From Flavobacteriales bacterium (GTDB lineage Bacteria; Bacteroidota; Bacteroidia; Flavobacteriales_C; GCA-002722245), in the NCBI GenBank assembly GCA_947444925.1, contig CANFBW010000004.1, forward strand, positions 1-64,000: a DNA stretch of 64,000 nt, read 5' to 3'. A program made the position numbers and the translations under genes. The notes beneath the pieces were generated by a model. It had not been told where the DNA came from, did no database searches, and saw only the letters and a program-made list of their open reading frames with translations. Below are positions 1-3,564 of the stretch, in pieces. How positions within the stretch are numbered: position 1 is the first letter of the stretch; each line of letters starts with the position of its first letter.

Positions 1-1988
1 GCCACTTCACTTTCTTTCAGTTCTTGCTCTTCAACGATCGCATCGATTTTTTTGTCAACGTCGTCGTTTTTCTCTTCTGCACTTTCTTCGCCTGGACGCG
101 TACCGAAAATTGCTTCTAAATCTTCTTTGAAGATCACCTCTTTTTCTAAAAGCAAACGCGCCAATTTACCTAAAGAATCTTTGTGCTCTGTCAAAATATT
201 TTTGGCAACGAGGTATGCTTCTTCAATGATAATGCGCACTTCAGCGTCGATGGTTTCCGCTGTTTTTTCGCTGTAAGGTTTGGTCAACGCATATTCATTA
301 GCGCCTGATGAATCGTAATAACTCACATTGCCAATTTTGTCGTTTAAACCGTACACAACGATCATTGAAGTGGCTTGCTTTGTCACTTTTTCTAAGTCGC
401 TCAAAGCACCTGTGGAAATTTCTCCAAAAACAATTTGTTCAGCTGCTCTGCCACCTAAAGCAGCGCACATTTCGTGAAATATTTGATCTTTTGTTGTGAT
501 TTGTCTTTCTTCAGGAAGATACCAAGCAGCACCCAATGAGCGGCCTCTAGGAACGATGGTAACTTTTAGTAAAGGAGAAGCGTGACGCATAAACCAGCTC
601 ACTGTAGCGTGTCCCGCTTCGTGGTATGCGATGGTTTCTTTTTCTTTTGGAGTAATGATTTTGTTTTTCTTTTCGAGTCCACCAATGATACGGTCAACGG
701 CGTCAAGAAAGTCTTGTTTGCCAACGCTTGTTTTGTTCGTACGGGCAGCGATTAATGCGGCTTCGTTACAAATATTGGCGATATCGGCACCCGAAAAACC
801 AGGTGTTTGTTTGGCTAAAAACTCAACTTCAACAGTACTGTCTGTTTTGATGGGTTTAAGATGCACTTTGAAAATGTCTTTTCTTTCGTTGAGGTCGGGC
901 ATGTCCACGTATATCATACGGTCGAAGCGACCGGCACGCATCAACGCTCTGTCTAAAATGTCAGCTCTATTTGTTGCGGCCAAAACAATGATACCGCTGT
1001 TGGTGCCGAAGCCGTCCATTTCGGTGAGCAATTGGTTGAGTGTATTTTCTCTTTCGTCATTTGCACCTTGCGCAGGATTTTTCCCACGGGCTCTACCAAT
1101 GGCGTCAATTTCGTCTATGAAGATGATACATGGTGCTTTCTCTTTCGCTTGTTTGAACAAGTCGCGCACTCTAGATGCACCAACGCCCACAAACATTTCA
1201 ACGAAGTCAGAACCTGATAAAGAGTAAAAAGGAACTTTTGCTTCTCCAGCAACGGCTTTTGCCAACAAGGTTTTTCCTGTACCTGGAGGTCCTACTAATA
1301 GGGCTCCTTTTGGAATTTTAGCACCGAGTTCGGTGTATTTTTTAGGGTGTTTAAGAAAATCAACAATTTCTTTAATCTCCACTTTAGCTTCTTCCAATCC
1401 GGCAACGTCGGCGAAAGTAATGTCCACTTTAGCGTCTTTGTCGAAAAGCGTTGCGCGTGATTTTCCAATGTTGAATATTTGTCCGCCTGGACCACCGCCA
1501 CCGCCCATGCGGCGCATCATGAAGATCCAAAAAACAGCCATTACGCCAAGCATCAATAAGATGCCAGAAATGCTTTCTAAAAAAGAGTGTTCTCTGTTTT
1601 CGTTGTCTACCAGCACTGCATGGTTTGGTGTTGCTGTGGCATTGTAGGCGTCGATTTCCTTTTGAAAGCTATCGGCCGAAGTAATGTCAAAGGTGTATTG
1701 CGGACCGGTTTTGGCAATTTTTGCATCGGTTTTTACCTCTTTGGTATTTAAAATAGAATCGCTAAGATAGGCTTCAACAAAAAGCTTTTCATCCAATTTT
1801 ACAATTACAATTTTTTTGACTTTCCCTTGTGCCAAAACATCTCTTTTGAATTCAGAACTTCCAATTTCCTTGGGCCCACCTGGCATATCCATAAATTGGT
1901 AAACAAGGATGAGTCCGATCACCAAAAGGAAAATCCATTGAATGGGAAAATTGACTTTTGTTTTCTTAGGTAATTTAGCAGATGACAT
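1..1988 (-). CDS. ftsH: ATP-dependent zinc metalloprotease FtsH (3' part cut by window edge)
   Basis: Membrane-anchored AAA+ protease that unfolds and degrades membrane and soluble proteins. The reading frame is open from an ATG at 1988 to the window edge, giving about 662 codons, so only the last residues are missing. In order I see a first membrane segment near residues 15-32, a periplasmic part, a second membrane segment near 137-157, a Gly-rich linker, Walker A GPPGTGKT, Walker B with IIFIDEIDA, the second region of homology ([10 protein letters not shown]), and the zinc site HEAGH. The acidic tail ([10 protein letters not shown]) is usual for Bacteroidota FtsH. It lies 21 bases downstream of rsfS on the same strand, a conserved pairing in this phylum, so the two are probably co-transcribed. 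Confidence 0.97.
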
Positions 1989-2009: not shown

Positions 2010-2717
2010 TTAATCTTGGTTTGGAATCACTGTGGTGTCGGCGTCGGCCCAAAGATCTTCTAATTTGTAAAATTCGCGGGTGTGTTGTTGAAACACATGC
2101 GCAATAACGGAAACATAGTCGATCAGAATCCACTCAGAATTGCTGAATCCTTCTCTCTTCCATGGATATTCTCCCGTTGTTTTTTTGACTTCTTTTTCAA
2201 GGCTGCCTGCAATTGCGTCGGCATGTGTACTTGAATTACCACTCGCAATTACAAAGAAATCACAAATGGAGTTTTGAATTTTGCGAAGGTCGATCACCAC
2301 AATGTCTAGTGCTTTCATTTCCTGCATTCCGGCAACGATAAGCTCAGACAATATTTTTGATGGGCCATTGGCAATAGCGTCTTTTTTTGCTGTTTCTTTT
2401 TTAACCACTGCTGTTTTGGCTTTGCCTTTTGCTAAAGGTTTCGCTTTCGCAACTGCTTTTGCAACAGGCTTGGCCTTTGTAGTTCCCGCTTTTGCTTTGG
2501 GTGCTGCTTTCGCCTTCGCCGCTACTTTTGGTTTAATAGTTTTAGCTGCTGCCTTTGCTTTTGGTGCTAATGCTTTCGCTGCAGGTTTTTTGCTTTTTGC
2601 TTTTTCGGCTGGCTTTTCACTTTTTGATGTTGCCGTTTTTTTCGCTACAGTTTTTGGTTTTTTACCGCTTACTTTCGCTTTTTCTTTCTTAGTACTATCT
2701 GAAGCTTTTCCAGCCAT
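2010..2717 (-). CDS. rsfS: Ribosome silencing factor RsfS with a Lys/Ala-rich N-terminal extension
   Basis: RsfS binds ribosomal protein uL14 and blocks subunit joining when nutrients are short. The family domain occupies about residues 118-228 (IVVIDLRKI, CDFFVIASGNSSTHADAIA, WILIDYVSVIAHVF). The usual family length is only 110-130 residues. Here the first 115 residues are a low-complexity tract of Lys, Ala and Pro (KPAAKALAPKAKAAAKT style) resembling histone H1 or AlgP tails, which suggests a nucleic-acid-binding or ribosome-tethering tail. The ATG at 2717 is preceded by a TACTTTTG box at 2743-2750. The gene lies upstream of ftsH in the same direction and is divergent from birA. Confidence 0.93.
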   Translation of the reverse strand: MAGKASDSTKKEKAKVSGKKPKTVAKKTATSKSEKPAEKAKSKKPAAKALAPKAKAAAKTIKPKVAAKAKAAPKAKAGTTKAKPVAKAVAKAKPLAKGKAKTAVVKKETAKKDAIANGPSKILSELIVAGMQEMKALDIVVIDLRKIQNSICDFFVIASGNSSTHADAIAGSLEKEVKKTTGEYPWKREGFSNSEWILIDYVSVIAHVFQQHTREFYKLEDLWADADTTVIPNQD

Positions 2718-2742
2718 TGAAAAATGATTTTATATTTACGTT

Positions 2743-2750
2743 CAAAAGTA
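2743..2750 (-). promoter_or_regulatory. Putative -7 box for rsfS-ftsH
   Basis: TACTTTTG on the minus strand matches the Bacteroidota TAnnTTTG element and sits 25 bases before the rsfS ATG. No clear -33 element is seen. Confidence 0.4.
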
Positions 2751-2808: not shown

Positions 2809-3564
2809 ATGAGCAACGCTGTATTCACAAGGGTTTTGGAGATAGATGAGCTTGCTTCAACGTCAATGGAGGCGAAACGACTTTGTGCGGAGGTGAGTGG
2901 TCAAAATTTGGCGGTTTGGACTAGAAAGCAAACGCAGGGGCGGGGCCAAGTTGGTGCCACTTGGTACACTGGTGCCAAAAAAGACATTGCATTTAGTTTA
3001 ATTTTTTACCCAGGTAGTTTGTTGGTTCAGCAGCAATTTTTATTGAATATGGTTGTTTGCAATGCATTGTGTGCCTATGTGAAATCTGTTATTACAGACA
3101 AGGAAGTGCATGTGAAATGGCCCAATGATATTTTGATTGGCAATAAAAAGGTGTGCGGGGTATTGATTGAAAATATTGTTCGTGGTCAAGTGATTAATCA
3201 TTCCGTTATTGGCGTTGGATTAAATGTAAATACGATACAATTTCCCAGCGCGCTTCATCAAGCGACTTCTTTGATGTTAGAACAGGCACTTTTTAAAGGA
3301 ACTCAGCGCAGCGAAACACTAAATGTTATTGAACGGGTGGGGGAGGCATTGTCAGTTTTTTATGAGGTGTTGCCCAATGCGAAGGCAATTGAAGAAGATT
3401 ATCTTTCGAATTTATTTGGGATGATGGAAGAGCGCACTTACATCAAAGATGGACAATCATTTAAAGCAACAATTACCGGGGTTGACGATTCAGGCAAGCT
3501 GAAAATGCTGGTGCAGGGAAATGAAGAGTTGTTCGGGTTTAAAGAGATTTCCTTTGTTTACTGA
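2809..3564 (+). CDS. birA: Biotin--[acetyl-CoA-carboxylase] ligase (short BirA, no HTH)
   Basis: Attaches biotin to the carrier domain of biotin-dependent carboxylases via biotinyl-5'-AMP. The sequence carries the catalytic-core motifs: the GRGQVGATWY loop (biotin/AMP binding, GRGR-type), KWPNDI, and KVCGVLIEN followed by VIGVGLNVN. At 251 residues it lacks the N-terminal DNA-binding domain of E. coli BirA, so it is a monofunctional (group I) ligase. I chose the ATG at 2809 over a TTG two codons earlier; a TAACATTG box ends three bases before this ATG. Its 3' end overlaps the convergent SRPBCC gene by 7 bases. Confidence 0.93.
   Translation: MSNAVFTRVLEIDELASTSMEAKRLCAEVSGQNLAVWTRKQTQGRGQVGATWYTGAKKDIAFSLIFYPGSLLVQQQFLLNMVVCNALCAYVKSVITDKEVHVKWPNDILIGNKKVCGVLIENIVRGQVINHSVIGVGLNVNTIQFPSALHQATSLMLEQALFKGTQRSETLNVIERVGEALSVFYEVLPNAKAIEEDYLSNLFGMMEERTYIKDGQSFKATITGVDDSGKLKMLVQGNEELFGFKEISFVY

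Follow-up and report, generated by a model that had tools for sequence, protein, structure and literature searches.

Analysis of a 64,000-nucleotide stretch of a Flavobacteriales bacterium genome (GCA_947444925.1, contig CANFBW010000004.1, positions 1 to 64,000; hereafter, the window) revealed a ribosome silencing factor in which the RsfS domain is preceded by a long polycationic tail rich in lysine, alanine, and proline. The protein is a true variant of the well-known RsfS factor, the tail being the addition, and comparable tails occur in several families of Bacteroidia. The chances are about even that a canonical, uL14-docking RsfS is combined here with a tail that clamps rRNA or another polyanion.

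The rsfS coding sequence (2010..2717, minus strand; 235 amino acids [aa] with an ATG start) was delineated by the list of open reading frames, Pfam and NCBIfam matches, and the predicted fold. The Pfam RsfS domain (PF02410, model positions 2-98) covers residues 126-223 (2049..2342, minus strand) with an E value of 6.3e-32 and 110.1 bits, against a cut-off of 21.6, and the NCBIfam model TIGR00090 matched with an E value of 2.9e-30 and a score of 104.3 (cut-off 56.9). An AlphaFold model based on a 10-row alignment has a confident alpha/beta fold for residues 119-231, and Foldseek matched it to solved RsfS (6sj6; TMt 0.89, E value 4.6e-10); the titles of the 20 chains found at E <= 0.001 name RsfS, iojap-like proteins, structural-genomics proteins (which are also sequence matches), and mitoribosome assembly intermediates. 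By curated score and predicted fold, the 235-aa protein is a member of the RsfS family, as the preliminary description had proposed, and its claim of an unusual length was confirmed, as the nine non-mitochondrial PDB chains matched by sequence comprise 105 to 152 aa. Chain G of PDB entry 28ye, entitled "Ribosome silencing factor S", has 152 aa, and its domain starts near residue 34.

RsfS of Staphylococcus aureus (6SJ6) and Escherichia coli (7BL2), which represent the RsfS/RsfA/YbeB/Iojap family, have the same domain, fold, and uL14-contact residues, but lack the 120-residue N-terminal tail. An RsfS domain with additional sequence is likewise present in the mitochondrial homologues MALSU1 and Atp25. 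MALSU1 chains reach up to 234 aa among the PDB sequence matches; the protein is mitochondrial, and its leader includes an import sequence. For Atp25, a targeting sequence and a C-terminal M-domain are described in an excerpt of PMC7560712.

The tail spans residues 1-120 (2358..2717, minus strand) and is thus slightly longer than the Lys/Ala/Pro extension at 2370-2717 that had been noted before. It contains 38 Lys, 33 Ala, 9 Pro, 9 Thr, 7 Ser, 7 Val, and 6 acidic residues, but neither Arg, His, Gln, and Cys nor any aromatic residue, and its net charge of +32 contrasts with -7 in the remainder of the protein. Disorder is predicted, in agreement with the earlier proposal of a disordered basic tail, by low AlphaFold confidence (block means of 45-59 across residues 1-120) and by the absence of secondary structure from residues 1-118 of the model. 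The label "histone-H1-like" holds for the composition but not for homology: no curated H1-like family was matched at E <= 1 in Pfam or NCBIfam, in searches that are weakened by bias filters for such sequences. Other models gave weak low-complexity matches far under their cut-offs (best TolA, E value 0.0034), and the single match of the tail in the PDB (E value 6.4) was judged to be due to chance. In a six-frame scan of the window, the rsfS tail was the sole stretch that met our Lys/Ala rule, and a Lys/Ala tail occupies the same place in all five genomes of the genus that were examined, which argues that it is more than a product of chance.

These five genomes, i.e., the one analyzed here and four others, encode tails of 120, 71, 87, 76, and 68 aa, which together contain 142 Lys, 93 Ala, no Arg, and no aromatic residue among 419 residues. 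Identity over aligned columns is 47-70% in the tail versus 63-93% in the domain; the net charge stays between +21 and +32 in all five while the sequence drifts. Despite length differences of up to 52 codons, the frame is open in every genome, with an ATG at the tail start each time. In the sister genus, by contrast, the tail is absent from rsfS genes with the same ftsH and birA neighbors (five genes in four genomes; no rsfS match was obtained in the fifth genome, which is 91% complete), and translation likely starts at a GTG five codons ahead of the domain. Since the locus is the same and only one of the two genera has the tail, the difference between them is a tail, situated between leader and domain, that was either gained or lost.

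The preliminary description had named standard-length RsfS in close relatives, together with a start codon just before the domain, as evidence that would speak against the tail. The former exists in the shape of the five sister-genus genes; the latter was found in part. Numbered in codons from the first residue of the chosen domain boundary, other possible starts are GTG -17 and TTG +2 in the genome of the window, GTG -33, ATG +3, and TTG +5 in G001, and ATG +1 in G002. G003 has GTG at -61, -54, and -50 and TTG at -49, and G004 has GTG at -55, with no ATG, GTG, or TTG from there onward to +9 in either genome. A start at the domain edge is thus possible in three of the five genomes, but it differs in site and codon and is not conserved. 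That translation begins beside the domain, leaving the tail as an untranslated 5' region, is highly improbable: the candidate starts in three genomes and the domain-proximal start of the sister-genus RsfS would fit, but the candidates lie at differing places, no such codon is present from -48 (G003) or -54 (G004) to +9, and the Lys/Ala-type frame stays open in five of five genomes despite the length differences. A promoter-like box directly upstream of the tail ATG in all five genomes also speaks against it. A miscalled start was therefore judged unlikely from the relatives, an argument that hinges on G003 and G004. A second, short RsfS form may be made beside the long one in some species (the window gene, L031, and L060).

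The box in question, TAnnTTTG (TACTTTTG; 2743..2750, minus strand), which we take to be the Bacteroidota -7 promoter consensus, begins 33 bases upstream of the rsfS ATG. It is found at -32/-33 from the tail ATG in all five genus members and at -37 to -43 in four of five sister-genus rsfS genes, and no further copy occurs on the minus strand below 2743. In the window, the motif has a frequency at chance level (71 found versus 74.5 expected), so that the conserved position is its sole support. Scans for sigma-70 promoters and terminators yielded nothing that exceeded shuffled sequences. Directly downstream of rsfS, after a gap of 21 bases, lies an open reading frame that runs off the window (3..1988, minus strand) and is presumably ftsH, named by recognition; divergent from rsfS is another (2809..3564, plus strand) that we likewise recognize as a presumable birA-like biotin ligase gene. 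Homologues of ftsH and birA were found at at least 52 and at least 49, respectively, of the 59 relative rsfS loci, counts that are lower bounds due to short flanks.

RsfS is widespread in bacteria: it was matched in 58 of 60 genomes of relatives, providing 59 genes that were all read, and in 380 of 395 genomes in a wider search of the class, whereas the matched non-mitochondrial structures are the short forms mentioned above. The proposed search for other RsfS proteins with long basic N-termini was successful. When a tail is defined by a distance of 60 aa or more between the first ATG and the domain and a Lys plus Arg content of 25% or more, 10 of the 59 genes are tailed; they represent six of the 47 family groups (f1, f11, f13, f20, f37, and f41), and the genus of the window supplies five of the ten. 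Three genes have a basic N-terminus of 20-59 aa, one of which (G053) is not of the Lys/Ala type, and the remaining 46, including those of the sister genus, lack a basic extension of at least 20 aa; three of these 46 give a longer reading that is not Lys/Ala-rich. Among the matches listed from the 395 genomes, nine further frames of at least 183 aa comprise seven with and two without a Lys/Ala tail, in a set that was picked for length and hence yields no frequency; the seven belong to f37 (three), f41 (three), and f20 (one), and two of them are identical proteins. One scan supplied 73 named loci, in 72 of which RsfS was recovered as well (L136 is a fragment); their Lys/Ala tails are three that are identical to counted genus members and one in a Chitinophagales genome (nzgw138; 52 aa, with a TTG start by the rule used), the other long-looking N-termini not being of the Lys/Ala type. 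All tabulated tails of at least 60 aa (17, representing 16 distinct proteins) are positive, with net charges of +19 to +63, and their domains are negative (-4 to -13).

A quick tree was calculated from FtsH and RsfS pieces of 60 of 68 loci, the others being short of FtsH sequence; G019 and the Chitinophagales genome with the 52-aa tail are left out. The tail needs at least five state changes on this tree, but the starred branches force only two, which could be read as one gain and one loss, and 29 of the 57 inner branches are weak. In f41, the domain-adjacent stretch is common to all four genomes while the Lys/Ala part is variable: L049, L141, L142, and L144, of which L142 and L144 are identical proteins, have "ANLIANSEKK...KRPKK" between the Lys/Ala part and the RsfS domain, and this shared motif points to a further conserved element adjoining the variable tail. 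In f37, a common domain-adjacent stretch next to a variable Lys/Ala part was found in two of four genomes. L138 (G321; 2105-2384) and L009 (G045) have very long Lys/Ala tails of 248 and 189 aa, respectively, and share LSRNQ.KKSS... between tail and domain. Genome G007 contains two different rsfS genes (L033 and L034) on two contigs, and its contamination is estimated at 5%; the pair reflects a duplication or, alternatively, a mixed bin.

How the domain itself works can be approached via the uL14 interface. In S. aureus, RsfS residues Glu70, Asp81, and Tyr98 form the primary contacts with Arg97, Arg107, and Lys113 of uL14, and the RsfS pocket is lined by bL19 and the rRNA helix H95, according to excerpts of PMC7125091 (see also PMC9503621). 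The three RsfS residues correspond to Glu189, Asp200, and Tyr217 here, which are invariant or at least 90% conserved across the 10 rows of the alignment, and uL14 of the same genome retains Thr96, Arg97, Arg107, and Lys113. As the binding residues are kept on both partners, 50S docking is probably canonical and, judging from the sequence, the domain should silence the 50S subunit in the usual way, i.e., dock on uL14 of the large subunit and so block the joining of the 30S subunit.

The disordered tail would then be a flexible clamp that holds RNA phosphate electrostatically and raises the affinity or the residence time of RsfS on the 50S subunit. Because H95 and bL19 lie beside RsfS in S. aureus, RNA should be within reach of the tail, and the simplest target would be the 23S rRNA around the RsfS site (H95 and its neighbors), or possibly another RNA; since Lys/Ala tails bind many polyanions, the choice of rRNA is a guess. 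The clamp is favored by the charge distribution (+32 on a domain of -7, with the other long tails likewise positive on negative domains) and by the fact that two HU, two HPF, bL19, and uL14 of the same genome carry no Lys/Ala tail. Short N-termini of other Bacteroidia RsfS (at most 20 aa from an ATG, n = 36) have a mean length of 11 aa and 31% Lys plus Arg, and 23 of the 36 contain three or more Lys or Arg residues. As they are often basic, the long tail looks like an enlarged basic N-terminus, and it may have arisen by enlargement of this element that is already common in Bacteroidia. Against the clamp stands the lack of a basic extension of at least 20 aa from the 46 of 59 sampled genes, those of the sister genus among them.

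The same absence would also fit a neutral low-complexity expansion, in which Lys/Ala codon repeats of a tolerant, disordered basic N-terminus change in number by replication slippage and have no selected function. This origin is conceivable since the tail is less conserved than the domain, and slippage is able to make such tails, as the tail DNA of G321 is a tandem array of 36-base units (5.9 copies). The uneven tail length also fits: it ranges from 68 to 120 aa in the genus of the window and reaches 248 aa outside it. The tail DNA of the window, however, is almost devoid of tandem repeats (best score 39), and a fresh expansion is thereby excluded; moreover, the lack of Arg and aromatic residues and the net charge have been kept in all five genus members while the sequence drifts, and similar tails occur in six of 47 family groups. 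Taken together, we consider a neutral origin somewhat unlikely.

Other functions than a clamp at the RsfS site can be conceived by analogy. The tail might bind nucleoid DNA or polyphosphate and thereby store silenced 50S subunits on a polyanion during starvation. Excerpts of PMC9239181 describe a 154-aa KPAA-rich, H1-like disordered region in AlgP of Pseudomonas, the association of AlgP with polyphosphate granules, whose spacing requires it, and the binding of DNA by KPAA peptides in vitro. The Lys-only, Ala/Pro-rich composition is alike, and RsfS, too, acts when cells enter the stationary phase (PMC7125091); nevertheless, the likeness to AlgP/PhaF is one of composition only, and their tail is C-terminal and attached to another domain, whereas that of RsfS is N-terminal, which makes such a tether a decidedly unlikely function. 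Still more doubtful is a condensate switch, in which the tail would phase separate with RNA in starvation and concentrate or activate RsfS. Its model is Rho of Bacteroides thetaiotaomicron, whose intrinsically disordered region (IDR) mediates phase separation in starvation and varies strongly in length and composition between lineages, as outlined in part of a commentary (PMC10284900). Like RsfS, Rho is a conserved factor related to RNA whose disordered segment is specific to certain lineages, and the RsfS tail is predicted to be disordered and polycationic; Rho is a different protein, however, and its E/K- and Q/N-rich IDR is unlike the RsfS tail. In a broader scenario, which we regard as unlikely, RsfS of several Bacteroidia lineages may have gained, perhaps repeatedly, a tail by which silenced 50S subunits are anchored during starvation to a polyanionic store, be it an RNA condensate, polyphosphate, or the nucleoid.

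Two further sources of the tail were considered and rejected. With respect to a fusion with a stand-alone Lys/Ala protein, a protein search of the same genome with the tail as query, which is a weak method for low-complexity sequences, returned only rsfS itself and an out-of-frame match there with five stops. A degenerate Lys/Ala DNA pattern had no matches in this genome, but the pattern also misses the rsfS tail. A genome-wide habit of adding Lys/Ala tails was dismissed as well: none was found on two HU, one HU-like protein, bS16, uL14, two HPF, and bL19, a sample of eight proteins only. The bS16 protein (L150) has a long C-terminal Ala/Glu/Lys tail, the charge of which is unlike that of the RsfS tail. 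The genome also encodes two separate short hibernation factors of the HPF/RaiA type (PF02482; L152 and L153), both untailed.

Among the titles and abstract openings listed for the open PMC literature, no description of a basic RsfS tail was found. A lineage-restricted polycationic tail in several families represents a natural experiment on whether disordered tails tune ribosome silencing, and it may bear on the storage or protection of 50S subunits in some Bacteroidia. If a tether to a store were true, ribosome silencing would depend on localization in addition to steric block; a neutral tail, on the other hand, would provide a useful case of the inflation of a basic N-terminus.

Opposite the tail runs an antisense open frame of 148 aa (2281..2727, plus strand; open reading frame list), which is not a gene by the evidence available here. 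The preliminary description had ascribed this shadow frame to the repetitive codons of the tail, and this explanation stands. In 2000 of 2000 shuffles of the codon order of the tail, the longest antisense frame was as long or longer, and the antisense strand of the tail contains no stops in the shadow register, versus five and seven in the other two. According to the genetic code, a stop codon can occur in the shadow register only where the sense frame encodes Tyr, His, or Gln; these residues are absent from the tail, so that its composition alone suffices to keep the shadow frame open.
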